NCBI RefSeq assembly: GCF_032191465.1
Contig: NZ_JAQOUE010000001.1
Location: 1,426,001-1,490,000, forward strand
Length of the DNA stretch: 64,000 nt
Source: Candidatus Nitronereus thalassa
GTDB taxonomy: Bacteria > Nitrospirota > Nitrospiria > Nitrospirales > UBA8639
Direction: 5' to 3'
The first letter of the stretch is position 1. Each line of letters begins with the position of its first letter. A model generated the notes under the pieces. The model was not told the DNA's origin and did no database searches. It was given only the letters and a program-made list of their open reading frames with translations. A program made the translations under genes and the position numbers. This document shows, piece by piece, positions 30,811-57,957 of this stretch.

Positions 30811-32835
30811 ATGGGGCTTTTTAAGAAAAAATCCGCAGCTGAGAAACAACGTAAAGCAGAAATAAAAAAGGCCAAGAAAGATGCTCGCGCCGACAAAAAA
30901 GACGCTCGCCAAGATTCCAGGGAGGTAAAGAAAACCGCCCGCAAAGACGCAAAAGCAGAAAAAAAAGACCTACGCCAGGAAACCAAGGCCGTGAAGAAGG
31001 ATGCGCGACAAGATAAACGTGAGGGGCTAAAGGATGTTCGCCAATCCGATCTAACCGGCAAGGCCAAGCGGGATGCGAAAAAAGATGTTCGCAAGGGAAA
31101 AAAGGATACGGTTAAAGTTGCGAAACAAGAGAAGAAAGATAAGAGGCATGATATTCGGAACGAGAAAAAGGATCGTGTGCAGGATGCCAAGGTGGAGAAG
31201 AAGGAGACAATTCAGCAGATCCGCGAGAGAAAGCGTGCGATCCTCAAAAACCTACGGGTACCGAAGGCATTGGATCGAAAATGGAATAGCTACCTGAAAT
31301 TTCAGCATGTGGATGCCTTGGAAATTTACAAGCCGAATACCCTGAGTCATTTGCAAACCATCTGCCGAATTGCGACCGACAATGGGTTAAAAGTACGCGC
31401 CATCGGCTCCGGCCATTCTTTTTCTGAAATCGGCGTCACGGAGGATATTTTTGTGGAGACGAAAAATCTCAACAAAATGTTGCCGATGAACAATACCCGC
31501 AAAAATAAACTCAAAAACAATGTCCGGCGGCGGCGAATGGCAGAATTACAAGTTGGGCGCACGATCATTGAAATTTCCAAAGAGTTGGAGAAGTCCGGTG
31601 AGGCCTTGATAAATCAAGGCACCTACGATGGACAAACCTTTTGGGGCGCAGTGTCGACTTCTACGCATGGATCAGGCCTCAAGCGAGGGCCGTTCCCAGC
31701 CATGATACTCAGCCTAGTATTGGTAGGCGAGGGTGGACGGACGTACCGCATTGAACCTCGGGATGGGATTACCGAGGCGCGCAATTGGCGTGAAAACGGC
31801 ATTGATGAGCTCATTCAAAATGATGATGTGTTCAATTCAGTCATTTGTTCGTTTGGCTGTATGGGAATTGTCTATTCCGCCGTCATCTCGACTCGTGAAT
31901 TCTATTGGATGAATGAGTGGACCTATATTTCCACCTGGTCAGCCTTTAAAGAAAGTTTTTCTCGCTATTCTGACATGCGAGCCTTTGTTGAACGCTGGGA
32001 CACCATTTCACTCTTGATTGGCCCGACCAAAGCCAAATCGGGCGGCAAAGATGGCGTAAGTTTCAAGGGTGAAAACCCCATGGCCATGAACCTGCGATTG
32101 GAAACCAACGAGACCCGCACCATTGGCGGAACATTCATGGATAGTTTGACCAAGTTTTTCGAGCGAATTGGGGTCATCGACTGGATCAAGGCTCCAGCAG
32201 AAGGCCGAGGCTTTACAGTGGCGGATATCTTTCCCGGTGATGCTTGGATTGCGAAGAAAGGCGTTCGTGCTTCCGGCAAGATCGGCTGGATGGGTGAAGA
32301 GATCAAGCCTAAAGAAACACCCATAAAGCGGCGCAATAAATGCTACAAGATTTTCCCCAAAGGCGGAAAATTGTTTGGGGGCTATGGGTTGGAGGTCGCC
32401 TTTCCCATTGAACGCACCATCGAAATCATGGATCGGATTATCGAGTTGGCCGAAGAGAATAAATCCAACAAGTTATTCCACACTGCGCCGGTGGCAGTCC
32501 GTTTCGTCGCACCGACGACGGCCTATGCCTCGCCCCAATATGCAGATCCGAACGACAATGTGTCAGCATTTGACCAAGGCACGGTCATGTTCGAAGTTCT
32601 GATGGCCAAAGGGACGGAAGGCGGCATGCAAGCCTTGCAATTGATTGAGGAAGCGATGCTAGATGAGCGCGATGTCCGTGTGCATTGGGGGCTTCATTTT
32701 GATCGAATCAACAGCCGCAATACGAATTTTGAGCGGATGTATCCCAAATGGCCCCAATTCCGCGCAACGTTCCAACGATTCAATCGCCAAGGCACGTTTA
32801 AGAATGTCTTTACCGATCGAATCGGCTTGCGCTGA
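30811..32835 (+). CDS. FAD-binding (VAO/PCMH-type) oxidoreductase with lysine-rich hendecad-repeat N-terminus
   Basis: A 674-residue protein in two parts. Residues 1-151 are almost wholly Lys, Arg, Asp, Glu, Ala and Gln, arranged mostly as 11-residue units such as KKDARQDSREV, KKTARKDAKAE, KKDLRQETKAV, KKDARQDKREG, KKDKRHDIRNE and KKDRVQDAKVE. This predicts a long charged helix or coiled coil. From about residue 165 comes a PCMH FAD domain, with VRAIGSGHSFSEIG holding a possible covalent-flavin His. WGAVSTSTHGSG follows. The C-terminal half resembles sugar-lactone oxidases (gulono/arabinono-lactone type). A strong ribosome site precedes the ATG. The substrate is unknown. Lactone or sugar oxidation is a family-level guess. 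Confidence 0.82.
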   Translation: MGLFKKKSAAEKQRKAEIKKAKKDARADKKDARQDSREVKKTARKDAKAEKKDLRQETKAVKKDARQDKREGLKDVRQSDLTGKAKRDAKKDVRKGKKDTVKVAKQEKKDKRHDIRNEKKDRVQDAKVEKKETIQQIRERKRAILKNLRVPKALDRKWNSYLKFQHVDALEIYKPNTLSHLQTICRIATDNGLKVRAIGSGHSFSEIGVTEDIFVETKNLNKMLPMNNTRKNKLKNNVRRRRMAELQVGRTIIEISKELEKSGEALINQGTYDGQTFWGAVSTSTHGSGLKRGPFPAMILSLVLVGEGGRTYRIEPRDGITEARNWRENGIDELIQNDDVFNSVICSFGCMGIVYSAVISTREFYWMNEWTYISTWSAFKESFSRYSDMRAFVERWDTISLLIGPTKAKSGGKDGVSFKGENPMAMNLRLETNETRTIGGTFMDSLTKFFERIGVIDWIKAPAEGRGFTVADIFPGDAWIAKKGVRASGKIGWMGEEIKPKETPIKRRNKCYKIFPKGGKLFGGYGLEVAFPIERTIEIMDRIIELAEENKSNKLFHTAPVAVRFVAPTTAYASPQYADPNDNVSAFDQGTVMFEVLMAKGTEGGMQALQLIEEAMLDERDVRVHWGLHFDRINSRNTNFERMYPKWPQFRATFQRFNRQGTFKNVFTDRIGLR

Positions 32836-35510: not shown

Positions 35511-36380
35511 TCAACCCAAAGCTTCTTTGACTGTCTCGCCAATTTCCGCTGGATTTTTGACCACTCGAACCCCAGCAGATTCCAAGGCGGCCATTTTTTC
35601 TTTGGCAGTGCCTTTTCCGCCAGTGATGATGGCTCCAGCATGGCCCATGCGTCGCCCAGGAGGAGCCGTGATCCCCGCGATAAAACCGATAACCGGTTTG
35701 GTCATTTCTTTTTTGATAAAGGACGCGGCTTTTTCTTCAGCATCACCACCGATCTCGCCGATCATGACGACCGCTTCGGTCTCGTCGTCTTGCTCGAACA
35801 TTTGAAGCAGATCAATGTATCCGGTTCCAATGATGGGATCGCCGCCAATGCCGACACACGTCGTTTCGCCAAGCCCCAAATTCGTGAGTTGGTTGACGGC
35901 TTCATAGGTAAGGGTACCGCTACGGGAGATCACCCCCACTTTGCCTTTTTTATGAATGAAGCCCGGCATGATACCGATTTTACATTCGTCTGCTGTAATG
36001 ATCCCTGGACAATTGGGGCCGATGAACCGGGTCTGGGTGCTCTGGAGCGCACGTTTCACACGCACCATTTCATTGACCGGAATGCCTTCGGTGATACAGA
36101 CCACTAACCAAATGCCCGCATCTGCAGCTTCGAGAATGGCATCTGCCGCGAAGGGAGGCGGTACAAAAATCAACGACGTGGTGGCTTCGGTCTTTTTAAC
36201 AGCTTCGCGAACGGTGTTAAATACCGGAATGCCCTCAACTTCTTGCCCCGCTTTTCCAGGAGTCACCCCTGCCACAATCTGTGTTCCATAGGCCTTACAC
36301 TGCGTGGCATGAAAGGAACCTTCTTTTCCAGTAATACCCTGGACCACGACTTTCGTTGATTTATTCACTAAGATACTCAT
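35511..36380 (-). CDS. sucD: Succinyl-CoA synthetase alpha subunit
   Basis: A 289-residue CoA-binding subunit. With SucC it interconverts succinate, CoA and ATP with succinyl-CoA, running toward succinyl-CoA in the rTCA cycle. The CoA-binding fold has [14 protein letters not shown]. The phospho-histidine loop is [12 protein letters not shown] (His247), and [20 protein letters not shown] is conserved. GGAAGGAACGGAG precedes the ATG. It follows sucC by 118 bases and ends the long rTCA gene run. Confidence 0.96.
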
Positions 36381-36498: not shown

Positions 36499-37683
36499 TC
36501 ACCCCTTTTTCTTTTTGCCTTTCATGGCCACAATCTTTTGCGCGGCTTCCCAGAGGTCGGTGGCCACATCTACCTTTAAGCCTGACTCGAGGAGAAGCTT
36601 TCGGCCTTCCTCGGCATTGGTTCCTTGGAGACGAACCACCACGGGCAATTTAATGCCGACCTCTTTTGATGCTTCGATCACGCCGTTGGCAATACGTTCG
36701 CATCTCACGATTCCACCAAAGATATTGATGAAAATGCCTTTGACTTTTTTGTCCTTGAGGAGAATGCGAAATCCGGCGGCTACGGTCTCTTTCGTCGCTC
36801 CGCCGCCAACATCTAAGAAATTCGCGGGTTCGGCACCGGCTAGCTTAATGACATCCATTGTCGCCATAGCGAGCCCTGCGCCATTCACCATACAGCCGAT
36901 ATCCCCGTCGAGTTTCACGTAGTTGAGATTATGCTTTCCTGCTTCAATTTCCATCGGCTCTTCCTCGTGCAAATCGCGGAGGGCCTGGATATCCGTATGT
37001 TTGAACAACGCGCAATCATCGAAAGAAACTTTGCCATCCAAGGCAATCAGCGTTTTTTCCGTGGTAATGACCAGCGGATTAATCTCCACCATGGACGCGT
37101 TCTTTTCCATAAACAAGCGATACAAATTCCCCAGCATTTGAATGAACGGATTGACCACCGCCTTTTCAATCGCAGGCAAGCCTAGGGCAAAGGCCAGATT
37201 GCGCCCGTTGTAGGCTTGAAACCCAACGGCCGGATCAATGGTTTCCCTGATGACTTTTTCCGGGGTCTTTTCCGCCACTTCTTCGATCTCCATTCCACCT
37301 TCGGTACTAGCAATGAAGACCGGACGCCCAGTATCCCGATCGACGAGTAAACTAAGGTAGAGTTCCTTGTCGATTCCTGCGCCTTCTTCAATGAGCAATC
37401 GGCGAACTTTTCTGCCCTTTGGACCCGTTTGATGCGTCACGAGGGTTTTTCCCATGAGCTCTTGCGCCAACCCCGGAACCTCGTCACGATTTTTTGTGAT
37501 CTTCACGCCACCAGCTTTGCCTCGTCCTCCTGCATGGATTTGCGCTTTGACCACATACACTGGGGTGTCAAGCGCCGCCGCCCATTTTTCGGCAGCCCGG
37601 GCACTTTTAATTTCTTTGCCCTTGGGCACAGGCACTCCAAATTGAGCAAATAACTGTTTCGCTTGAAATTCGTGAATGTTCAT
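36499..37683 (-). CDS. sucC: Succinyl-CoA synthetase beta subunit
   Basis: A 394-residue ATP-grasp subunit that binds nucleotide and succinate. The N-terminus [22 protein letters not shown] is canonical. [19 protein letters not shown] binds nucleotide and [11 protein letters not shown] holds the Mg ligand. The C-terminal flavodoxin-like domain has [17 protein letters not shown] and [13 protein letters not shown]. The end is lysine-rich (GKKKKG). It lies 107 bases after frdA, so it is likely part of the same transcript. Confidence 0.96.
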
Positions 37684-37790: not shown

Positions 37791-39377
37791 TTATGTATTC
37801 TGCGTTCGCGTATACGCGGGCAACACCATCGGGGAGATGACTTGACTGGTGACACCATGTTTCTTGCTTTCGGCCCGGAAGCGTTGCAAATGGGTTAACG
37901 TTAATTTCCCCTGAGAAGCGGTTTTCACTCTCGATGCTGCGGTGAGTCCCGAACGTTTTCCAAATACCATGAGATCTAACAGCGAGTTCCCCATTAACCG
38001 ATTACGCCCATGCAACCCCCCAGAGGTTTCCCCAGCCACGAATAGATTCTTCACTGATGTTTCACTATTGGAATCGATCTTCACGCCACCGTTTTGATAA
38101 TGCAGTGTCGGATAGATCAACACGGGGTCTTTTCGAATATCCACGCCATACCGTTCATATTGCCGAACCATGGCCGGGAAATGTTTATCCAACGTCCCCT
38201 CTCCTTGTTCAGCTTCGAGCAGCGGAGTATCCAACCAGACACCAACCCGACCTGTGGCGGTACGTATGCCGCGCCCTTCTTCACATTCTCGTATAATCGA
38301 TGACGACACCACATCGCGTGTATCCAACTCATTCACAAACCGTTCACCTTTTGAATTGACCAAATGTCCGCCTTCTGACCGAATGCCCTCGGTCACGAGC
38401 TGGCCGACCAATTGTTCGGGATATACGCCACCCGACGGGTGATATTGGAAAGTATCGATTTGAACAAGTGGAGCGCCCATTCGATACGCCAGTGCGAGAC
38501 CATCGCCCGTAGCCCCATAATGGTTACTCGTGGGAAATCCTTGAATGTGCAGACGTCCGATTCCACCCGTGGCCAAAATCACGGCTTTGGCCGCCACGAC
38601 GACAAACCGCTTGTTATCCAAATCTTGGAGTACGGCCCCGGTGCATGTCCCCTGTTCATCACTCAACAATTCGATCGCAGCGGCGAATTCAAGCAGCTGA
38701 ATCTTTTGGTTCAGGACTTCATCCTTCAGCACCCGCATGATTTCCAGCCCGGTATAATCGGAACAGGTCAACAAGCGTTCTTTTGTACTGCCACCCCCTT
38801 TTTTCACATGCAAGTTGCCATCGGGGTCTCGATCAAACAACACACCCAATTCTAATAACCACTTCGCAATCGAAGGACCCTCTTCCACCATAGTTTTCAG
38901 GAGGTCATGGTCATTTTTCATATGACCACCCTTGAGGGTATCCAGGAAATGCTGAACCGGGGAATCATTAGGAGCGACCGCGATTTGCATGCCACCTTGA
39001 GCCATGACGGAATTCGAATCGGCTAGGCGCAACTTGGTCGCCAGCAGGACTTTTGCTCCTTCGGCATGGGCATGCAGTGCTGCGGCACAACCAGCACCGC
39101 CGCCGCCAACCACCAACACATCAACTGTATAATCTGGGGTCAGGGTCAACTCTGTAGGAACGGGACTATCCCCTTCCAATACCGAAGCCAATTCTCGAAC
39201 CGTCAGATCGCCCGCATTTGGACCGAAAGCCACGGGACGATACGCCGCCTCGCGATGATCGGGATGGTATTTTTTTATGAGCGTATCACGCTCGGCAGGA
39301 CTCAGTTTGGGTAAGGCTTGAGCACGACGGGAATCGCGAGAATTGTGGACCACTTGATGAAGTGCATGAATATCCAT
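37791..39377 (-). CDS. frdA: Fumarate reductase/succinate dehydrogenase flavoprotein subunit
   Basis: A 528-residue flavoprotein. It would reduce fumarate to succinate in the rTCA direction, or oxidise succinate. The FAD Rossmann motif [23 protein letters not shown] and the substrate/FAD segments [19 protein letters not shown] and [14 protein letters not shown] are present. At the place where SdhA/FrdA carry the covalent-FAD His (HTxAAQGG), this protein reads NSVMAQGG (Asn122), so FAD is probably non-covalent. An N-terminal extension of about 80 residues precedes the Rossmann fold. The ATG at 39377 is used. A GTG at 39392 directly abuts GGGGGA. Confidence 0.88.
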
Positions 39378-39397
39378 AAATGAAAAAGTCACTCCCC

Positions 39398-40141
39398 CTA
39401 TTTAATATTCGCGGAGGCTTGCTGCAATTCGTCATCGGACATTTTCAAGACGCGGTCCCAATCTTCTTTGTATTGTCCCTCTTCTATGGCCTTAATTCGA
39501 TCAGCAAGGCCCGCGGGCTTTTCCATTTCTCGCACACCATAGGCTCGACTGGCATAGACGCCGACCAAGCTCGGCGCAATATCGGCAATACAGACCGGCG
39601 CGCACAGGCCGCACATCACACAATCCATAAACGTTTCCGACACCGCCTTAAAATCACCAAAAACGGCTTTCCACACGCCTTCTCTCACATCGATGCCTTG
39701 CGGACAAGCCTCTGTGCAGGCATTACAATTCCGGCATAAAGGCGCCTCGGGATACAACTCAAACAAATCTTGTTTAGGATTTTCGAGGGTATTGAGATCG
39801 TAAACGGCCTTCCGCGCGGGAAACGGCGGAGCAAACGAAAAAGACATGCCATCTTCCACGGCATGGGAACAGGCGAGGCAGGTTTTGACTTTCGGGTCAT
39901 CCTTGGTTCGATAGTAAGTTCCACATGCGCCACAAAAACCACCTAGGCATCCTGCGCCACGAGTGACCTCATGGCCCGCATACCACAGCGCCTTCATCAG
40001 CGTAATCCCTGCGGGAACTTGATGGGCCTTCCCATCGATTTCCACAGTCACCATCTTCGGTTCTTGGGCATGCTCTTGATCGACCGTATTTTCGTTTTCA
40101 GTGGTCATAGGCAATTGGGTGACTTCCAAGTAGGAAGCCAC
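39398..40141 (-). CDS. frdB: Fumarate reductase/succinate dehydrogenase iron-sulfur subunit
   Basis: A 247-residue electron-transfer subunit. A ferredoxin-like domain has Cys65, 70, 73 and 88 in GAGCLGGFCGACGTYYR and TCLAC. Two complete 4Fe-4S motifs follow: CRNCNACTEACP (Cys136, 139, 142, 146) and CVMCGLCAPVC (Cys174, 177, 180, 184). Canonical SdhB/FrdB instead bind 2Fe-2S, 4Fe-4S and 3Fe-4S clusters. No cytochrome b or membrane anchor gene is adjacent, so the pair may be soluble or use other partners. The GTG at 40141 follows AAGGATGG. An ATG at 40108 is possible. Gap to frdA is short. Confidence 0.85.
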   Translation of the reverse strand: MASYLEVTQLPMTTENENTVDQEHAQEPKMVTVEIDGKAHQVPAGITLMKALWYAGHEVTRGAGCLGGFCGACGTYYRTKDDPKVKTCLACSHAVEDGMSFSFAPPFPARKAVYDLNTLENPKQDLFELYPEAPLCRNCNACTEACPQGIDVREGVWKAVFGDFKAVSETFMDCVMCGLCAPVCIADIAPSLVGVYASRAYGVREMEKPAGLADRIKAIEEGQYKEDWDRVLKMSDDELQQASANIK

Positions 40142-40154
40142 CCATCCTTCTTGG

Positions 40155-42401
40155 TTAATTCAAGGCATTTAAAGCCGAACCCGCTTTAAACCAGGTTATT
40201 TGGGGCTCGGTCATGCTGTGATTGGCTTGTATGGTAATTTCCTTGCCATCCTTCTTATGAATCACCACGGACACGGGTTTTCCAGGAGCCAGAGAGGCCA
40301 GACCTGTGACACTGATCCGATCTTCTTGCTCAATCTGATCATAGTCCGAAGGATTGGCGAACGTCATGGGAAGAATGCCTTGCTTCTTCAAATTGGTTTC
40401 ATGAATACGCGCAAAACTCTTCACCAACACGGCAAGGACACCAAGGAACCGTGGCGACATCGCGGCATGTTCACGGCTGCTGCCTTCGCCATAATTTTCA
40501 TCACCAACGACGAACGACCCAATGCCCTTCGATTTATAATCACGGGCAACTTGCGCCGGCGTCAGTCCTGATTCCCCAGTTAACACATTGTTGGCTTTGC
40601 CAGCCTCGCTCGCAAAAGCATTGTTGGCGCCAAGGAACATGTTGTCGCTAATTTTATCCAAGTGCCCACGGAACTTGAGCCAAGGCCCGGCAGGAGAAAT
40701 GTGATCAGTCGTCGTCTTCCCTTTGGTTTTAATCAACAATGGAAGTTTCACAAAGTCTTTGCCATCCCACTTTGGAAATGGTTGCAGCAATTGAAGCCGT
40801 TCACTGGTAGGAGGCAGATCCACTTCCAGACCCTCGCCATTTTCCGCTGGAGCGACAAAGCCTTCCTCGCCTTTGGCAAACCCTTTGGCTGGCAATTCTT
40901 CCCCCTGAGGAGGATCGAGCTTAATGTCCTTGCCATCCGCAGTTTTGATGGTGTCGTGAATGGGATCGAATCCTAAATTCCCAGTCAGCGCATAAGCAGC
41001 CACTAATTCCGGACTCGCCAAAAATGACAAGGTTTCAGCAATCCCGTCATTCCGACCAGGAAAATTCCGGTTAAACGTGCTGACAATGGAATCGGCTTTC
41101 CCCTTGACTCCATCCGCGCGCTTCCATTGACCGATACATGGGCCACAAGCATTCGCCAACACCGTAGCACCTAAATCTTCAAACGTCTTCATGAAACCAT
41201 CGCGTTTCATAGTATGGAAAATACGTTCGGAACCTGGTGAAATTAAAAATGCAGTTTTGGCTTTCAAGCCCGCTTTCAAACCTTGCTGAGCAATATGGGC
41301 GGCCCGGCCAATATCTTCATAGGAAGAATTCGTACAGCTTCCGAGAAGCGTGGCTTTTAGCTCAACGGGATAGCCTTTTTCCTTCGCTTCGGCGGCTAAT
41401 TTGGAAATGGGTCGCGCTAAATCCGGAGAATGCGGACCGACCACATGCGGCTCCAACGCCGACAGGTCAATTTCCACGATTTCGTCGAAATACTTTTCGG
41501 GATTTGCATAGACTTCAGGATCAGCCACTAACAATTCTTTATTGGCCTGAGCCAACTTCGCAATATCCTCACGCTCGGTAATCTTGAGATAGTCCACCAT
41601 TTTTTGATCAAAGGGGAAGACCGACGTGGTCGCGCCCAACTCCGCGCCCATATTGGTAATCGTGCCTTTGCCGGTGGCGCTAATCGTTTCAGCGCCTGGA
41701 CCGAAGTATTCGACGATTTTGTTTGTGCCACCTTTTACCGTGAGTTTTCCGCAGATATACAAAATCACATCCTTGGGAGATGCCCAACCACTGAGTTTAC
41801 CCGTAAGTTTTACACCGATCAGTTTGGGATGCAGCACTTCCCAGGGAAGTCCGGCCATCACTTCGCCAGCGTCGGCTCCACCGACGCCAATGGCCAACAT
41901 ACCTAACCCACCGCCATTGGGTGTATGAGAGTCTGTTCCGATTATGAGCCCACCAGGGAATGCATAATTTTCCAGAACCACTTGATGAATAATGCCTGCG
42001 CCAGGTTTCCAAAAACCAATGCCATACTTTTTCGCGGCGGACGCCAGAAAGTTATAGACTTCCCGATTTTCTTGGTTGGCAATCATGAGATCTTTTTCAG
42101 AACCCATTTCCGCCCGAATGAGGTGATCGCAATGAATCGTACTCGGCACAGCGGCCTTCTTTTTGCCGGCTTGAATGAACTGCAACATAGCCATTTGGGC
42201 CGTAGCATCTTGCATGGCCACGCGATCAGGCCGAAGGGCCAACATGGCCTTGCCTCGGTCCCAGGCTTGAGTATTCAAATCATCAGCATGGGACACCAGG
42301 ATTTTTTCAGCGAGCGTTAAACCTCGACCAAATTTTTTCCGAGCGGCGTCAATGGCCGCTGGCATTTTTGCGTATAAATTTTTGACTAAATCAATCGACA
42401 T
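40155..42401 (-). CDS. Aconitate hydratase (mitochondrial-like type)
   Basis: A 748-residue aconitase that interconverts citrate and isocitrate with a 4Fe-4S cluster. It resembles the mitochondrial ACO2-like branch rather than AcnA (about 890 aa) or AcnB. Substrate and cluster segments are visible: AVPSTIHCDHLI, GTDSHTPNGGGLGMLAIGVGGADAGE split across the active site, LLGSCTNSSYEDIGRAA (cluster Cys) and ANACGPCIGQW (two cluster Cys). The C-terminal swivel domain has GDENYGEGSSREHAAMSPRFLG. CGGAGAA precedes the ATG. It sits between frdB (13 bases) and aclA (85 bases) in the rTCA run. Confidence 0.95.
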   Translation of the reverse strand: MSIDLVKNLYAKMPAAIDAARKKFGRGLTLAEKILVSHADDLNTQAWDRGKAMLALRPDRVAMQDATAQMAMLQFIQAGKKKAAVPSTIHCDHLIRAEMGSEKDLMIANQENREVYNFLASAAKKYGIGFWKPGAGIIHQVVLENYAFPGGLIIGTDSHTPNGGGLGMLAIGVGGADAGEVMAGLPWEVLHPKLIGVKLTGKLSGWASPKDVILYICGKLTVKGGTNKIVEYFGPGAETISATGKGTITNMGAELGATTSVFPFDQKMVDYLKITEREDIAKLAQANKELLVADPEVYANPEKYFDEIVEIDLSALEPHVVGPHSPDLARPISKLAAEAKEKGYPVELKATLLGSCTNSSYEDIGRAAHIAQQGLKAGLKAKTAFLISPGSERIFHTMKRDGFMKTFEDLGATVLANACGPCIGQWKRADGVKGKADSIVSTFNRNFPGRNDGIAETLSFLASPELVAAYALTGNLGFDPIHDTIKTADGKDIKLDPPQGEELPAKGFAKGEEGFVAPAENGEGLEVDLPPTSERLQLLQPFPKWDGKDFVKLPLLIKTKGKTTTDHISPAGPWLKFRGHLDKISDNMFLGANNAFASEAGKANNVLTGESGLTPAQVARDYKSKGIGSFVVGDENYGEGSSREHAAMSPRFLGVLAVLVKSFARIHETNLKKQGILPMTFANPSDYDQIEQEDRISVTGLASLAPGKPVSVVIHKKDGKEITIQANHSMTEPQITWFKAGSALNALN

Positions 42402-42486: not shown

Positions 42487-44313
42487 CTATTTCAGTGGTG
42501 GCACTTCCCGACGACTAGGGGCTGCATAATTCACTAAATAATTAAACAATCGAATCAATCGGCTGCCTTGCCGCTTTTGATCCGTCCAATGGCCGATCAG
42601 TCCAATGGTTCTGGACAGAACAAAGAACCCGTTGAGACTATCCACCGGGAAGCCAATATCGACTAAGACTGCCGCCATGGTACCGTCGACGTTTAGGATT
42701 AGGTTATCTTTTTTGGCTGCCGTAATTTTTTCCACCTCTAGCGCAAAATCTAGATGCGGTGTGGGAATACCTAAACTTTTCACGTACCCGACAAGTTCTT
42801 TGACCCGCTTGTCCGGGTTTCGAAGGCTTTTCACCCTATGGCCAATTCCCGGAACTGGTCCGACATTTTGCTTCATGTAACCCAAGAATTCATTAACGGC
42901 CATCTTGTTATCGATGGCGTATTTGAAGTAGCGTCCGGCATCCGTAACGGCTCCACCAAAGCGTGGGCCAATCATGATCAGCCCAGCCGCGACTGCCTGA
43001 GACATTCCAATCCCCGCACAAGCTCCAATGATGGTCGTTAACGCACCACTGACACAAGGGCCATGGTCCGCGGAAAGAATAATGATCCGCCGCATAATTT
43101 CGGCTTCTTGCTTGGACACCAATCGGCCATCCCAGAGCAAGCCAATCACATGCGTAATGTCATACCCTTTATTAATAAGCTCAGAAGCGGGATACCCTTG
43201 ATAATAAGGCTCATCCCCCCGATCATCACTGATGGTCGATTTAATAAGTGGAGTAACGAGAATATCGCCATCGGCCATGCCTTGCTCCACACTCCGAGGC
43301 AACGCAGGCTTCTCGGTTTCCGTCAACTCAGGAATGGCTTTAACCTGTCCCAATTTCAACAGCTCTTCATAAGTGGCTTTAATCGCAGGTCCCAACGCGC
43401 CAAAAGTATCAGGCACTGTCGCTCCAGATTTCTTCAAGGCTTCGGATTTCGCTCGGGCTGACCCTTCACCTTTCAGTCCTTCCTTGGCTCCCGCATGGCC
43501 AAACTTCATCCCTTTCGGTAGGCTTTCCTGGCAGAAACCGGAAACCACTGCGAGCAATTTAATCCGGCGTTTCTTCGCGCCATACCATTCAGCTGCACGT
43601 TCTTCCAAATCTCCACCCATTTCTCCAACGATCACAACGGCTTTGGTTTGGGGATCGTTTTCAAACATTTCCAAATAGCTGACATAATCCGTGCCCGGAT
43701 ACGCATCCCCCCCGATGCCAATGGCCGTAGTAATCCCATCAGCGAACTGCGAACAAATCCAAATAATTTCGTTAGACAGGCCACCCGACTTCGTGATGAC
43801 CCCGAATGAACCTGGGCGATATAGTTTGCAAGCTACTAAATTATCAAACGCTCCGCCGATAACGCCCAGACGGCATTCGCCAGCAGACATCACGCCAATT
43901 GAGGAAGGCCCGTTAAACGTCTTTTTTAAACCCCGAGCATGTTTTCCCAAAAGCTTGGCGTCTTTTTCAGGAAGGCCCTCAGTAATCATAGACACTGTTT
44001 TGATGTGGGAATCATCCAAAGCTTCTTTGGCGCTAGCATAGGCACGATCGGCGCCGACATACACTAAGCTGGTATTGATCTCCGGGTGATTCGCCGTGGC
44101 TTCCGCAATGGTTTTGTAAATAGGAATCATCACTATTTGATTCCCGCAAATCACTTCATTGAATTTACCGGCATCAGGCGGATAGACAAAGGCGGATACA
44201 TTCAATGGCTGTTTGATCATATATCGGAACTCGGCCATCCGTTTAGCCGCGTTCACGCCGGCCACACCGCCCTGAATTACTACGTGGGTATCTTTCGTTG
44301 CCAAAATACTCAT
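42487..44313 (-). CDS. aclA: ATP-citrate lyase alpha subunit
   Basis: A 608-residue subunit, the length of Chlorobium AclA. With AclB it cleaves citrate plus CoA to acetyl-CoA and oxaloacetate using ATP, the defining step of the rTCA cycle. The N-terminal half is SucD-like, with CoA-binding VVIQGGVAGVNAAKRM. The phosphorylated His is in KFGHAGAKEG (His273). The C-terminal part is citrate-synthase-like, with GPCVSGALTTI and PGIGHRVKSLRNPDKRV. GAGGAGAG precedes the ATG. It lies 37 bases after aclB. Confidence 0.96.
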   Translation of the reverse strand: MSILATKDTHVVIQGGVAGVNAAKRMAEFRYMIKQPLNVSAFVYPPDAGKFNEVICGNQIVMIPIYKTIAEATANHPEINTSLVYVGADRAYASAKEALDDSHIKTVSMITEGLPEKDAKLLGKHARGLKKTFNGPSSIGVMSAGECRLGVIGGAFDNLVACKLYRPGSFGVITKSGGLSNEIIWICSQFADGITTAIGIGGDAYPGTDYVSYLEMFENDPQTKAVVIVGEMGGDLEERAAEWYGAKKRRIKLLAVVSGFCQESLPKGMKFGHAGAKEGLKGEGSARAKSEALKKSGATVPDTFGALGPAIKATYEELLKLGQVKAIPELTETEKPALPRSVEQGMADGDILVTPLIKSTISDDRGDEPYYQGYPASELINKGYDITHVIGLLWDGRLVSKQEAEIMRRIIILSADHGPCVSGALTTIIGACAGIGMSQAVAAGLIMIGPRFGGAVTDAGRYFKYAIDNKMAVNEFLGYMKQNVGPVPGIGHRVKSLRNPDKRVKELVGYVKSLGIPTPHLDFALEVEKITAAKKDNLILNVDGTMAAVLVDIGFPVDSLNGFFVLSRTIGLIGHWTDQKRQGSRLIRLFNYLVNYAAPSRREVPPLK

Positions 44314-44350: not shown

Positions 44351-45544
44351 TTATTTAGACAAAGCCATATCCACAATATCAGTCAACGGCAGTGTGCGAT
44401 CGAAGACTTCAATTTTGAAGCCTTCTTTTTGCAGCTCTTTCATTGCAGCCAATCCTTGCTTTTCATTCGGGCCGCCTCGACGCACCCAAATGCGAACATT
44501 GTCCATCTTGCCTTCGGCCTTAGCCTTTCGAAACGCATTGATGATTCCACCAAAGGTCTTTTTGACGTCAGTAAAATTCGCAATGGCGCCACCAACAATA
44601 ATGTTAGTAATACCTGGCAGCGAACAAACCTTCTCCGTTAACACTTCCACCGCCCAATCCGGAGGATCACCAGAGTATTCGGCATAATTAGCCAATTTTC
44701 CTCCGCGGGCCACGACGGCATCGGAGTAATACACGCTCGCGCCTCCACCAGCGGGCAGCATGGCAATATTGCCTCCGGGAATCTCGATGAGCTTGACCGA
44801 CCCTTTGACCTTGGCATCGACCGCCATGACTTCTTCTTCATTCTTGGTATAGGCACGACCAAATTCCGCAGCAAAAGGAAACGTCCAATCCTTGTGACGG
44901 AATTTGGCATCGCCATCGAGGAGGGTGACCGCATCGAGAGCAACCAAATCACCGGCGGAATTTTGCACCACCGGATTAATTTCTAAATATTGCGCATCTT
45001 CGTTATCAAAACAGATGAACAGCTTTTTGAGGAATTCCGCCACCTTTTTGGCCGTGTCACCAGAAAATCCAGCATCTTTTACCAGACCAGAAAGCGCCGC
45101 ATCGGTCGGCTCTTCGCCAATATCCACTAAAATCCGTTTCACCTTCTCCCAATTGGATTCAACTTCGATCCCGCCACAATTCGCCACCATGATCTCGACA
45201 CCTTCGCGCACCGATTTGGCAGCGGCATAATATTCGTCGGTGTGATCAATGGCTTCCGAAACAATCACTTCACGGATGGTCACTGATTCCACCTTTTTGC
45301 CTAACATCTCCTTGACTGCCGCTTTGGTGCCCTTGAGATCCAACCCAACTTTGACCAGGCCCAATTTAAATCGAGACCCCAACGCCTCATGGGCCTTGGC
45401 AACCAATTTACTCTTTTGTAGCCAGTCATTGGTTTGTGCAAGTTGGTCAAATTCCTCTGACGAACTCACGACCACGTAATTCGGGGTTTGCAGCCCCCAC
45501 TTCTTCAACAAGCCCATTCCCGGGCCTTCAAGTACCTTAGCCAT
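44351..45544 (-). CDS. aclB: ATP-citrate lyase beta subunit
   Basis: A 397-residue SucC-like subunit that supplies the ATP-grasp nucleotide site of ATP-citrate lyase. It opens MAKVLEGPGMGLLKKWGLQTP. YLEINPVVQNSAGDLVALDAV gives the Mg-binding pattern, and IVGGAIANFTDVKKTFGGII closes the phosphate-binding half. AAAGG precedes the ATG. It is first in the run of seven rTCA genes and has a good promoter candidate immediately upstream. Confidence 0.95.
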   Translation of the reverse strand: MAKVLEGPGMGLLKKWGLQTPNYVVVSSSEEFDQLAQTNDWLQKSKLVAKAHEALGSRFKLGLVKVGLDLKGTKAAVKEMLGKKVESVTIREVIVSEAIDHTDEYYAAAKSVREGVEIMVANCGGIEVESNWEKVKRILVDIGEEPTDAALSGLVKDAGFSGDTAKKVAEFLKKLFICFDNEDAQYLEINPVVQNSAGDLVALDAVTLLDGDAKFRHKDWTFPFAAEFGRAYTKNEEEVMAVDAKVKGSVKLIEIPGGNIAMLPAGGGASVYYSDAVVARGGKLANYAEYSGDPPDWAVEVLTEKVCSLPGITNIIVGGAIANFTDVKKTFGGIINAFRKAKAEGKMDNVRIWVRRGGPNEKQGLAAMKELQKEGFKIEVFDRTLPLTDIVDMALSK

Positions 45545-53729: not shown

Positions 53730-55076
53730 TCAAATATTTTGCATAAAATGAGCAACTTCATCTGGATCGACCGTACCCATAATGGCGGATGATGGAACGG
53801 TTGCAGATTTTTTACCGGTAAGTCCACATTCAATTTCTTCGTAAATCATTTCAACTGGCATGGACATACCACCATACACATGTGGACCCGCCACAATTTT
53901 GGCTTTGGAATACCCATAAACCGCCGTGGCCACATCTTTGGCTAACCACCCAACATAATTAAATTCAGGCACCACGATGAGTTTGGCCTTTGCGCAAAGT
54001 TTACGAAGTTCTTTTGTGGGAAATGGCCTCAATGACCTAATTTTTATCAGCCCAGCTTGTATGCCATTCTCTGTACACATACGAATGGCTTCACGACATT
54101 GGCCAGCCATACTACCTGAAGCAATCAAAATTACCTCGGCACCCTCAACATCTTGAGCTTCCAGCAGTCCATCCATGTATAAATCGATATATTTTCGTGA
54201 TCGTTCAACCGCGGCCCACACCTCTTGCTGCCACACCGCATGAATGTTATAGGCCATGAAGTTTGATTTCTGGACCGGAGCATCACGAGACAATCGAGCT
54301 GGTGGATTTTCTGCATCCAACACCGGCACCGCCCCACGCCAGGCTTGACGGGCAGGTAATTTCAGACCTTTATCCTGCATGGCACAATACCCACGCGCAT
54401 GAGTCACAAAAAATCCATCACAACACACCCCCACAGGAAGAGTTACATCATTCATTTCACTAATGATGAAACCTTTCATGATAAAATCAAACAAATCTTG
54501 TTGATTCTCCGCATGGAAGACGATCATTCCACAATTCAGCAGGTAGGCGATTTCAATATTGTCCGGTTGAATGGCTAAAGGCGCGTTGACGACGCGGCAG
54601 GTAAACATCGCCACAGCTGGCAATCGATGCCCTGGCCATGAAGCAATGGGCTCAATCCCGCGAAGCGTACCTGGGCCGGCAGTTGCGGTAAAGCAACGCA
54701 CACCGGCGCGTGATCCACCGGCGATGGCAGACATCACGCCATATTCTTCCTCGCCACGGTAATACTCTTTCACATAGCCTTCTCCATACAATACCCCAAT
54801 GAGCTGCATGGTTTCACTTTGGGGGGTAATGGGATAGGCAATAGAAAGATCCACGTTTGATCGGCGAACCGCTTCCTTGGCGGCCTCACTCCCGGTAATA
54901 AACTCTCGCTCCCGAGGAGCTTCGTTAAACATATATTGTGGAGTCACTTCTTTTTGTCTTTTTGCCTCGGCATGGGGATCTTTTCTCCCGCTCTGTGATG
55001 AAGGTGCCGGTGCGGCACTCGTAATTGGGTCGCCTTGTGGATTGGTTTTGACTTCTGGCTCTAATGTATCACTCAT
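53730..55076 (-). CDS. 2-oxoacid:ferredoxin oxidoreductase alpha subunit
   Basis: A 448-residue alpha subunit, last gene of the five-gene operon. The enzyme either carboxylates acetyl-CoA to pyruvate or succinyl-CoA to 2-oxoglutarate with reduced ferredoxin. Residues 1-45 are a Pro/Ser/Ala-rich tail. The pyrimidine-binding side follows with LSIAYPITPQSE and GEEEYGVMSAIAGGSRAGVRCFTATAGPG. The C-terminal domain has EVILIASGSMAGQCREAIR and VVPEFNYVGW. AGGGG precedes the ATG. Pyruvate versus 2-oxoglutarate specificity cannot be told from sequence reading. Confidence 0.93.
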   Translation of the reverse strand: MSDTLEPEVKTNPQGDPITSAAPAPSSQSGRKDPHAEAKRQKEVTPQYMFNEAPREREFITGSEAAKEAVRRSNVDLSIAYPITPQSETMQLIGVLYGEGYVKEYYRGEEEYGVMSAIAGGSRAGVRCFTATAGPGTLRGIEPIASWPGHRLPAVAMFTCRVVNAPLAIQPDNIEIAYLLNCGMIVFHAENQQDLFDFIMKGFIISEMNDVTLPVGVCCDGFFVTHARGYCAMQDKGLKLPARQAWRGAVPVLDAENPPARLSRDAPVQKSNFMAYNIHAVWQQEVWAAVERSRKYIDLYMDGLLEAQDVEGAEVILIASGSMAGQCREAIRMCTENGIQAGLIKIRSLRPFPTKELRKLCAKAKLIVVPEFNYVGWLAKDVATAVYGYSKAKIVAGPHVYGGMSMPVEMIYEEIECGLTGKKSATVPSSAIMGTVDPDEVAHFMQNI

Positions 55077-55146
55077 GGCTTAACCCCTTTATGGGTGGTG
55101 GCGAAGTCCCTTCAATTTGAAAGGACACCATTAATGTATGTTTTCT

Positions 55147-55938
55147 TTACCCTTCTCGTTGCATATCTTCCGGCTTATGGCCAAAGGCTGCAGCACTAGC
55201 CGCTCCTTCATTCCCGATTGGAATATCCAATGGGTTGGTATGACTTTTCCCTCCATGCACCAGAGATTGAAAGCCGGTATATCGAACATTTTCCCCATTC
55301 TCCGGCAACTTTAACCCCATCTCTTCACGCACTCGTTTGAAGACTTGGGCCGCCTTCCGAATTTTTGTGGCATCGGAATCTCTTACGGTATACATAGCGT
55401 CTTCATGGCCTTGCTCTGCACAAATCGCCGAAGTCCAGCAGTTCGTCCCGGCCCGAATCATTTTTAGGGTCAAATTGGCATAATGACAATGGACGCCAAT
55501 GAAAATACAGACCTCAATTTTATTCCCCCAAATGGTTAAATTTGGATGATTAGGGTTAATCATTTCTTCAGGTTCAATTTTTGGATATTTGGGACGATAA
55601 TCTGGCATGGGAATAATCAAGACATCAGGTATTTGTGCGGCAAGTTCCAAAACGGCCTTGGCTTTATCCGCTGCATGATCATTCCAATTCCACAAGACGA
55701 GGGGTCCTGGGAAAATTGTGGCATTTTTTCTAGTAAACATGGCCTTGGCCATTTCTTCCAATGCCTTTTCCTCAGCAACTTCATGCCCAAAAGTTAGCCC
55801 ATTTCCTGGCTTTGGAGGAAGCACACCCAACTCGGCAGCAGATGGAGGATGAAACCCCGCCGGTCCCGGCTCAACAATTCTTTCTAACTCTGTCACTCCC
55901 ACTTTCTGACTCCAATCATTGGGTTGTAAATGATACAA
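55147..55938 (-). CDS. Accessory (epsilon-type) subunit of 2-oxoacid:ferredoxin oxidoreductase
   Basis: A 263-residue soluble protein read from a TTG. It contains TFGHEVAEEKALEEMAKAMF, IFPGPLVLWNWNDHAADKAKAV and HCHYANLTLKMIRAGTNCWTSAICAEQGHEDAMY. This fits the extra subunit present in five-subunit enzymes of Aquificales and Nitrospira, sometimes labelled a CO-dehydrogenase-beta-like protein. It shares frame with the upstream delta gene, whose TAA stop lies 12 bases before the TTG. No ATG occurs near the N-terminus. Its role in the complex is not known to me. Confidence 0.72.
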   Translation of the reverse strand: MYHLQPNDWSQKVGVTELERIVEPGPAGFHPPSAAELGVLPPKPGNGLTFGHEVAEEKALEEMAKAMFTRKNATIFPGPLVLWNWNDHAADKAKAVLELAAQIPDVLIIPMPDYRPKYPKIEPEEMINPNHPNLTIWGNKIEVCIFIGVHCHYANLTLKMIRAGTNCWTSAICAEQGHEDAMYTVRDSDATKIRKAAQVFKRVREEMGLKLPENGENVRYTGFQSLVHGGKSHTNPLDIPIGNEGAASAAAFGHKPEDMQREG

Positions 55939-55950
55939 AAATGGTCGGTT

Positions 55951-56280
55951 TTACATTTGTCCACGAACCGGATTGGCTAACACCGCGCTACTATTTTTTT
56001 CCGCATAGGTGATATTTTCAGTGAGTGCCTGGTCACCAATCTGATCAATCATTTCCATTTTAATGGCATTATGTTTCGCCATATTGTCACAAACCCAGAC
56101 ACATTGGGCGCAGCCCTTACAACGATCCACGGCGACATAGGCGGCTCCATACTTCAGACCTTTTTCTTTGCCCGCGTCATTATTGTAATTAATGGTATTA
56201 GCTTCGGGACAATATTGGGTACATAATTTACAACTAGTGGCAGCACAAATTTCTGTATCAATATGAGCAACTAAATACAT
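55951..56280 (-). CDS. 2-oxoacid:ferredoxin oxidoreductase delta (ferredoxin-like) subunit
   Basis: A 109-residue electron-carrier subunit. Two cluster motifs can be seen: CAATSCKLCTQYCPEAN (unusual first spacing) and CKGCAQCVWVCDN. They would take two 4Fe-4S clusters between the beta subunit TPP site and ferredoxin. GAGGGGA precedes the ATG. It lies 23 bases after gamma and is in the same frame as the next gene. Confidence 0.9.
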   Translation of the reverse strand: MYLVAHIDTEICAATSCKLCTQYCPEANTINYNNDAGKEKGLKYGAAYVAVDRCKGCAQCVWVCDNMAKHNAIKMEMIDQIGDQALTENITYAEKNSSAVLANPVRGQM

Positions 56281-56303
56281 AGTATCCCCTCTTCAAAGAT
56301 GAG

Positions 56304-57008
56304 CTAGGCCGTTGCCGCAGAAGTCGCGCCTTCTTTTACTTTAGCCCACCCATTATCAACGGCATAGTCCCAAGCAGCTTTTACAACAGCAAGATTTTTA
56401 TCAATGAGCTCCTGCTTTTTCTTAAACTTTCTTTCTACCACGCTATCTAAAGCCGCTGTCCCCCCGGAAACCACGAAGCCTTTTCCAAGGAATCGATCCT
56501 TCACCGCTTGAGCCAAGGCATCCATATTCGTCAAACCGGTGATGGCCCCCATAGCACCAATCATCGCCATATTTGTGGCGAGGTCAATCCCAGCCACATC
56601 AAGCGACAACGTGGTCGCAGGCAAATAGAATAATCTGGCATTAATTTCTTTTAGCTCACGTTCCTGATCCGGCTCTAACCTCATGGGCCCATCATGGTTG
56701 ATTAAGGCGACCCCTTCCTTTTTCAACCCGTAGTAAAAGGGGTTTGTGTAACTTTTTCCATGAGTAATGACCTGAGGATGAAAAATCATAATAATGTGAG
56801 GAAAGGTAATCTCGCCAATTTCATAAATTGGCTCATCGGAGACCCGAACATAACTTTCCACTGGCGCCATCCGTTTTTCAGAACCATAGAAAGGAACAAT
56901 CGTGCTTTCTCCACCGGCATTAATTACTCCAGTGCTAAAAATATGAGAGCCCGTGACAACACCCTGTCCTCCTACTCCTGCCATACGAATATTAAAACGA
57001 ATCGCCAT
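56304..57008 (-). CDS. 2-oxoacid:ferredoxin oxidoreductase gamma subunit
   Basis: A 234-residue gamma subunit. It opens with IRMAGVGGQGVVTGSHIF, the gamma Gly-rich motif. FYGSEKRMAPVESYVRVSDEPI then helps bind CoA or the beta subunit, and ATNMAMIGAMGAITGL closes the domain. AGGAGGG precedes the ATG. It lies 58 bases after the beta subunit gene, so it is co-transcribed. Confidence 0.93.
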   Translation of the reverse strand: MAIRFNIRMAGVGGQGVVTGSHIFSTGVINAGGESTIVPFYGSEKRMAPVESYVRVSDEPIYEIGEITFPHIIMIFHPQVITHGKSYTNPFYYGLKKEGVALINHDGPMRLEPDQERELKEINARLFYLPATTLSLDVAGIDLATNMAMIGAMGAITGLTNMDALAQAVKDRFLGKGFVVSGGTAALDSVVERKFKKKQELIDKNLAVVKAAWDYAVDNGWAKVKEGATSAATA

Positions 57009-57066
57009 GACCCAAACCCTCCTCTATCTTCAATACCTTCATGAACCTGACATCTGTAGATAACTC

Positions 57067-57957
57067 TTACTTCTGTTCGACAGCCTTCGCAGGTTTTGGC
57101 AAATATTCTTTATAACCGTATAACTGGGCCAAGCACTCCTTGGCTTCATCCGTAATATATTCAGAAAACTTATACCGATCGTTTTCAACATCCTTGGCAT
57201 CTTCCATCACCTTATCCGTGGGAATGGCATATTCGATGTTGCAGGAGGTATAGGCCTGAATGTAGGTCGGGCCAATTTCACGAGCAACCAATACAGCCTT
57301 CTTTATCACGCTTTCCACACGTCTCGGGTTATTCGGAACGACGGTGGCCACATACGCGCAACCAGCCACTTTCGCCATTCCTAACATATCCATCTTTTCA
57401 AACTTTTTCCCTAACGGGGCCATCTTCAGAACTTGGTTTTTATTAGTCATCCCACTTTCCTGTCCACCGGTGTTTCCATACACCTCATTATCAAGCATGA
57501 TGGTGGTAAACTTTTCTTTTCTAAACCATGAATGGAGTGTCTGAGCAAATCCGATATCTGCCATTCCACCGTCCCCTGCCATAACAACTACATCTTTTGG
57601 TTTATCCCCGAACCGGAGCCGTAGACCACGAACCAGCCCACTGGCAACCCCATTTTGATCACCATAGTTTCCATAGACAAAAGGAATCGCCGCTTGTGAA
57701 ATAGCAAGACGACCACACCCTGCCGTTCCCACCGTGATCGTATCTTCGGGGTTAGGAAATGCAATCATTGCTAAACGAATAAACAAAGTCATGGCACATC
57801 CCGCACACATTGGATGCTCTTCCAAAATTTCTTTGAAAGTGCCAACTTGAGAAACAGAAGTTTTCTTCCCAAATGGACCAAAATCCACCATATCTCGATA
57901 TTCTTTGGGCATGAACTTGCCAAATCCAGGCGTGAATTTCACGTAATCGAGGCTCAT
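57067..57957 (-). CDS. 2-oxoacid:ferredoxin oxidoreductase beta subunit
   Basis: A 296-residue TPP-binding subunit and first gene of the operon. Cys51 and Cys54 lie in HPMCAGCAMTL and help hold the proximal cluster. The TPP motif runs from AGDGGMADIGFAQTL to LDNEVYGNTGGQESG. AAAGGAGGG lies before the ATG. The order beta-gamma-delta-epsilon-alpha matches five-subunit enzymes of rTCA bacteria. These are reported to tolerate some oxygen in Hydrogenobacter. Confidence 0.94.
   Translation of the reverse strand: MSLDYVKFTPGFGKFMPKEYRDMVDFGPFGKKTSVSQVGTFKEILEEHPMCAGCAMTLFIRLAMIAFPNPEDTITVGTAGCGRLAISQAAIPFVYGNYGDQNGVASGLVRGLRLRFGDKPKDVVVMAGDGGMADIGFAQTLHSWFRKEKFTTIMLDNEVYGNTGGQESGMTNKNQVLKMAPLGKKFEKMDMLGMAKVAGCAYVATVVPNNPRRVESVIKKAVLVAREIGPTYIQAYTSCNIEYAIPTDKVMEDAKDVENDRYKFSEYITDEAKECLAQLYGYKEYLPKPAKAVEQK

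Follow-up and report, generated by a model that had tools for sequence, protein, structure and literature searches.

The frdBA gene pair of a Nitrospirales rTCA operon: a probable cytosolic fumarate reductase apart from complex II

The frdBA Locus

The window, by which we mean the whole stretch of 64,000 nucleotides from Candidatus Nitronereus thalassa analysed here, carries open reading frames (ORFs) in the order aclB-aclA-acn-frdB-frdA-sucC-sucD (Table 1). Succinyl-CoA synthetase is the next step of the rTCA cycle past fumarate reductase, and a 2-oxoacid:ferredoxin oxidoreductase gene set, situated ~14 kb from frdBA, probably provides the step after SucCD in the rTCA direction. Nitrospira are major nitrite oxidisers whose CO2 fixation, through the rTCA cycle, proceeds under air. 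The donor of fumarate reduction sets the energy cost of the cycle and its dependence on the quinone pool.

Table 1. Positions in the window of frdBA and of the rTCA genes around it
Feature	Position	Strand	Description
frdA	37791..39392	-	ORF; FAD_binding_2 flavoprotein, 533 aa from GTG, 528 from ATG at 39377
frdB	39398..40141	-	ORF; iron-sulfur protein, 247 aa; 2Fe-2S N-terminal and HdrC-like double 4Fe-4S C-terminal domain
aconitase (acn)	40155..42401	-	ORF; name by sequence recognition; 13 bp upstream of frdB
ATP-citrate lyase large subunit	42487..44313	-	ORF; aclA type, 608 aa; name by recognition
ATP-citrate lyase small subunit	44351..45544	-	ORF; aclB type, 397 aa; name by recognition
sucC	36499..37683	-	ORF; succinyl-CoA synthetase beta; name by recognition
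sucD	35511..36380	-	ORF; succinyl-CoA synthetase alpha; name by recognition
2-oxoacid:ferredoxin oxidoreductase gene set	53730..57957	-	ORFs; name by recognition
ferredoxin-like subunit	55951-56280	-	109 aa; part of the 2-oxoacid:ferredoxin oxidoreductase set

The gene neighbourhood of frdBA recurs in related Nitrospirota loci. ATP-citrate lyase genes stand beside frdBA in L043, L047, L050, L059 and L060, and citryl-CoA synthetase/lyase-like genes, identified by weak matches, are present in L044-L046, L048 and L049. The pairing of frdB with frdA is not a matter of chance, since both are conserved as neighbours throughout Nitrospirota and in many further phyla. The initial annotation of this DNA had found no anchor gene adjoining the pair, and we agree: acn lies upstream of frdB and sucC downstream of frdA, with no membrane gene between, and no membrane-subunit gene (SdhC/D or SdhE/F) was found beside the window frdBA. 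Nor were Hdr, Flx/Asr or FrhB genes found among the neighbours of the pair in the window.

Elsewhere in the window (30811-32835), an oxidase-like protein begins with a long lysine/aspartate-rich repeat of 150 residues, which precedes a sugar-lactone-oxidase-like FAD domain, named by recognition.

The Flavoprotein FrdA

The covalent-FAD His, the trait of complex II that was tested, is absent from FrdA, where Asn127 (Asn122 when counted from the ATG at residue 6) aligns with His45 of E. coli SdhA and FrdA. The replacement of the FAD-linking His by Asn, proposed in the initial annotation, is thus correct, and from the sequence the FAD of FrdA is very probably non-covalent. The dicarboxylate site is intact: H318, E335, R338, R359, H431 and R465 of FrdA align with H242, E255, R258, R286, H354 and R399 of E. 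coli SdhA, respectively. These catalytic residues, together with the location of the genes in an rTCA operon, make it very likely that FrdAB is a fumarate reductase.

Two features of FrdA were missed by the initial annotation, an N-terminal extension of ~85 aa and the absence of a C-terminal domain. In Pfam, FAD_binding_2 was matched and Succ_DH_flav_C (PF02910) was not, and the C-terminal region of E. coli SdhA has a counterpart in FrdA for only ~40 residues of the alignment. Truncation of the frdA C-terminus by a frameshift was considered and rejected, there being only ~107 bp between frdA and sucC, and the relatives being equally short. FrdA-family ORFs have a median length of 555 aa and a range of 385-653 aa that takes in partial and over-extended ORFs (96 ORFs, loci L043 up). 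The N-terminal residues H38, P39 and D40 are invariant in an alignment of 53 rows, and a regular-expression search for this His-Pro-Asp signature matched 43 of the 96 FrdA-family ORFs.

The AlphaFold2 model of FrdA has a pLDDT of 89.8. Its best fold matches (VIA) are soluble flavocytochrome c fumarate reductases (Z up to 40.8, 388 residues, rmsd 2.2); E. coli FrdA (Z 37.8) and yeast Osm1 (Z 36.0) are also matched. The flavin domain thus resembles that of the flavocytochrome c enzymes, but the window pair lacks their haem c domain, and the haem c motif CxxCH was not found in FrdA or FrdB. Fold likeness alone is no demonstration of function, and FrdA and FrdB were modelled as single chains, so that the FrdA-FrdB interface lies outside the reach of the models. 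The best NCBIfam model for FrdA is that of TfrA (NF004900), from the thiol:fumarate reductase TfrAB of methanogens, at 371.6 bits far below the cut-off of 718. Among the matches listed, no NCBIfam model scored above its own cut-off for FrdA or FrdB.

The Iron-Sulfur Protein FrdB

FrdB contains the motifs that the initial annotation had described: a 2Fe-2S motif formed by Cys 65, 70, 73 and 88 (C-x4-C-x2-C-x14-C), with Cys91 as an extra cysteine, and two complete C-x2-C-x2-C-x3-C sets at 136/139/142/146 and 174/177/180/184. None of the 12 cluster cysteines varies among 22 aligned relatives or in an alignment of 50, and Pfam matches are to Fer2_4 and to 4Fe-4S dicluster models. TfrB of methanogens has a C-terminal CCG (HdrB-like) domain. 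The window FrdB lacks this domain, no CCG match being found by Pfam in its 247 aa.

In the AlphaFold2 model of FrdB (pLDDT 86.7), prediction is poor at the start and around residues 51-60. The first half matches the 2Fe-2S domains of FeSII, complex I and hydrogenases (Z 8-9), and residues 109-195 match HdrC (Z 11.8, 87 residues, rmsd 2.2); the match of an SdhB chain to FrdB is at Z 7.7 and rmsd 12.1. In several Nitrospirota families, two tandem copies of frdB precede frdA (L043, L047, L051, L052 and L053).

Distribution and Phylogeny

A search with FrdB gave some match in 104 of 148 Nitrospirota genomes, the strong matches being those in the order of the window, in families adjacent to it and in one that is Leptospirillum-like. 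FrdA was matched at E <= 1e-127 in 159 of 175 Nitrospiraceae genomes by our reading of the match listing, the other 16 having a weaker match or none. The genes of relatives are plain ORF calls throughout, and the structure alignments cover 52 of the 75 eligible relatives for FrdA and 49 of 71 for FrdB. Asn occupies the covalent-His position in all 126 FrdA-family ORFs of the fetched loci, a number in which the window gene accounts for two and two genomes are counted twice. Four other flavoproteins were met, three with His at this position and one, the NadB of the window genome, with Asn.

In a quick maximum-likelihood tree, FrdA falls in a clade apart from SdhA, FrdA and NadB (SH-aLRT 100). 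On the family side of this branch are 73 of the 80 tree rows, and E. coli SdhA, FrdA and NadB, together with the SdhA and NadB of the window genome, are outside. The 80 rows were drawn from 104 collected, 24 near-duplicate or closely related rows having been removed by hand and short ORFs excluded earlier. The tree is the product of a short search, includes long outgroup branches that were flagged by the program, and is built without TfrA or Hydrogenobacter rows. The rTCA-linked Nitrospirota rows are not part of the branch that unites the other 59 family rows, and their mutual order is unsupported.

Complex II, NadB and Hydrogenase in the Same Genome

The window genome also encodes a type E complex II (L152 4760-8318), with an SdhA of 571 aa, an SdhB of 328 aa and an adjoining gene for a CCG protein (SdhE-like) of 295 aa. 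Its SdhA keeps the covalent-FAD His, unlike the window FrdA, which belongs to another clade; its SdhB, like FrdB, has two complete CxxCxxCxxxC motifs. The initial annotation had taken Asn in the flavoprotein and two 4Fe-4S motifs in the iron-sulfur protein as the sign of a soluble rather than a quinone-linked enzyme. The argument is weak, because Asn is also found in the genome's own NadB and both 4Fe-4S motifs in its own type E SdhB. Accordingly, Asn127 is rejected as proof of a special donor, and possession of two 4Fe-4S motifs does not prove that an enzyme works without quinone.

A complete group 3b NiFe hydrogenase set (HyhBGSL type) is located at L153 4800-8918 and includes, as HyhG, the one AsrB-like gene of the genome. 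HyhBG was rejected as a general donor, an ortholog above 300 bits being present in only 7 of 26 genomes.

Electron-Carrier Modules around Relatives

A genome scan, whose first sequence was a distant relative, confirmed 355 loci, of which the best 80 were retained; these come from sulfate reducers, Firmicutes, Chloroflexi, archaea and others. Because of this starting sequence and this selection, the sample over-represents the Hdr/Flx-linked branch and its counts are not true shares of contexts. Among the best 80 of the 355 loci, 69 have a Hdr, AsrAB/Flx or FrhB-like gene on the strand of frdBA and no more than 6 kb from it, HdrB being the partner in 48, HdrA in 38, AsrB in 14 and FrhB without AsrB in 17; the remaining 11 have none of Hdr, AsrAB/Flx or FrhB within 6 kb. 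These names have support from Pfam, in which AsrB shows NAD- and FAD-binding domains and the DHODB iron-sulfur domain, AsrA shows Fer4_22, HdrB shows CCG and MvhD shows FlpD. These gene neighbourhoods are better evidence than the two sequence markers: judging from them, the FrdBA family would be wired mostly to cytosolic modules, but the window member is partnerless.

Such modules also occur within the Nitrospirota. The order FrdB-FrdB-FrdA-SucC-SucD-FrhB-AsrA-AsrB is found in L051-L053, and in one family (L055, L057 and L062) a second frdBA is part of an HdrCBA-MvhD-FrhB-AsrAB-FrdBA array, which stands besides or instead of the rTCA-type copy. The gammaproteobacterial loci L089 and L095, from far relatives, have the order HdrCB-FrdBA-HdrA-MvhD-FrhB-AsrAB. 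They share a gene pattern with the published gammaproteobacterial rTCA clusters that hold TfrAB with FlxABCD-HdrABC (PMC6315080), a likeness of gene order; a Flx-Hdr "succinate operon" with fumarate reductase is likewise described for Pseudoclostridium thermosuccinogenes (PMC7282089). Neither Flx nor Hdr genes adjoin the window pair, in contrast to these clusters.

The HdrB-like partners score 161.5 bits as SdhE and 152.5 bits as HdrB, both below cut-off. Since the two scores are about equal, some of the relatives may be membrane-associated. Adjoining multi-pass membrane genes were seen only in L112, L135 and the five Leptospirillum-like loci (L044, L045, L046, L048 and L049); in all five of the latter a PsiE-family gene is directly upstream of frdB.

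Proposed Mechanism and Alternatives

We consider it probable that the product of frdBA is the enzyme with which Nitrospirales reduce fumarate in the rTCA cycle, a cytosolic protein pair that has a non-covalent FAD and is supplied by a soluble low-potential carrier and not by quinol. FrdA would reduce fumarate at its non-covalently bound FAD, using the standard His/Arg/Glu site. FrdB would relay electrons to this FAD by way of one 2Fe-2S and two 4Fe-4S clusters. The second half of FrdB is predicted to resemble HdrC, the subunit that relays electrons in heterodisulfide reductases, and not a quinone-reducing SdhB. The cytosolic complex would be fed by NADH through a diaphorase module or by ferredoxin, both of which are candidates, and succinate oxidation would be left to the type E complex II that the genome encodes at another locus. 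The analysis establishes the two genes, their residues and cluster motifs, the operon, the family and the predicted folds; the direction of the reaction, the non-covalent FAD, the solubility and the class of donor we infer.

The initial annotation had likewise proposed a soluble fumarate reductase with a low-potential donor. The fumarate reductase, the lack of an anchor gene and the separate clade all stand, but the argument from markers is lost. For the low-potential donor, the Hdr/Flx/Asr modules around distant relatives provide indirect support, whereas no such module adjoins the window pair. The window and the 11 loci among the best 80 of 355, all of them without a donor module nearby, count against the preferred explanation. 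So does menaquinol, whose potential by itself would also suffice to drive the reduction of fumarate.

On the whole, FrdAB is more probably free of a link to quinol than tied to one, and we regard as unlikely the alternative of a type E-like quinol-linked complex whose membrane subunit is encoded at a distant locus, such as the CCG protein SdhE from the sdh operon or a member of the PsiE family. A candidate partner does exist in the SdhE-like CCG gene beside the genome's own SdhAB. Against the alternative, the window has no anchor gene adjoining frdBA. The HdrB-like partners of relatives resemble SdhE; on the other hand, the relatives that are linked to AsrAB have NAD(P)H input, and the fold of FrdB is closer to HdrC than to SdhB. 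The PsiE gene of the Leptospirillum-like loci is the orf1 of Levican et al. (2008; PMC2607301), who described FrdAB of Leptospirillum ferriphilum without a canonical anchor, classed it as type E and proposed orf1 as its anchor, covalent FAD and ubiquinol being taken as the general rule. In a search of 10 genomes, however, the PsiE family was not found in G147 or G011, both of which carry frdBA.

That FrdAB acts mainly as a succinate dehydrogenase, or reversibly, with electrons passing from succinate to soluble carriers, is very improbable. The active-site residues would be the same for both directions, as established for SdhA/FrdA, and weak expression of the sdh operon is recorded for N. moscoviensis (PMC6606698). 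Against this, the established potentials make oxidation of succinate with NAD or ferredoxin strongly uphill, frdBA is in an rTCA operon, and a separate complex II is present in the genome. The least credible alternative makes the flavoprotein an L-aspartate oxidase: the nadB model (TIGR00551) scores 311.1 bits, the genome's own NadB shares the Asn and an "SdhA or NadB" annotation exists for an ortholog (see below), but the score is below the cut-off of 452.75, the separate NadB groups with E. coli NadB, and frdA has frdB as its partner gene within the rTCA operon.

Comparison with Known Systems

Relatives of the FrdBA pair are already in print, namely Leptospirillum FrdAB and TfrAB with Flx-Hdr. 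The Leptospirillum-like loci (family f14) carry homologous FrdB and FrdA, and the published cluster of L. ferriphilum resembles the window in having a frd pair without a canonical anchor, with acn, ccl, sucC and sucD as the rTCA cluster. Unlike the window, the Leptospirillum-like loci use citryl-CoA synthetase/lyase and have the PsiE-type gene (orf1) upstream. Hydrogenobacter thermophilus is said to have a soluble NADH-dependent fumarate reductase of five subunits encoded by five unlinked genes. That enzyme, which we compare by description only, is likewise soluble and serves the rTCA cycle of an aerobe. A subunit list is available for the fumarate reductase of Aquifex (PMC10052474). In Nitrospina, fumarate reduction was ascribed to complex II in the Nitrospina paper.

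The N. moscoviensis Ortholog and a Candidate Diaphorase

An ortholog of FrdA with 82% identity is located at 657,862 in G188, which we take to be the genome of N. moscoviensis. The nuoF copy near 3.84 Mb fits NITMOv2_4064, the nuoF tag given in PMC6606698. The spacing then comes to 945 bp per tag, so that tag 696 is expected at the position of FrdA, on the assumption that tags are linearly spaced and with nuoF as the second anchor. The ortholog is therefore almost certainly NITMOv2_0695, the evidence being strong but indirect. In the transcriptome study of Mundinger et al. (PMC6606698), NITMOv2_0695 is annotated as "SdhA or NadB" and is highly transcribed, far above the SDH/FRD cluster. The flavoprotein gene of the likely rTCA fumarate reductase pair of N. 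moscoviensis was thus left unassigned, under an ambiguous name, despite its high transcription. Our search, with papers behind subscription (the first Nitrospira genome paper among them) outside its reach, met no publication in which the Nitrospira pair is given the role of a soluble rTCA fumarate reductase. Once the pair is identified and set apart from type E complex II, this gap in the bioenergetics of Nitrospira becomes accessible to direct assay of the enzyme.

For the donor, a new NADH-dependent assembly can be imagined, in which a stand-alone NuoF and a 2Fe-2S ferredoxin would serve as diaphorase for the partnerless FrdAB. Although this NuoF is the most specific of the donor candidates, we think the assembly quite doubtful, the argument being one of co-conservation only; if true, it would mean that carbon fixation is uncoupled from the quinone pool in aerobic nitrite oxidisers. 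The N. moscoviensis NuoF is reported in PMC6606698 to pair with a 2Fe-2S ferredoxin and to be highly transcribed, and complex I is proposed there as the NuoF partner. The window genome has a stand-alone nuoF with an adjoining 2Fe-2S ferredoxin gene and without nuoE (L173 3869-5530), and the same pair is present in G081 (L175 4141-5802), the ferredoxin gene following nuoF in both of these genomes. A NuoF copy scoring ~508-526 bits is found in all seven Nitrospirales genomes examined.
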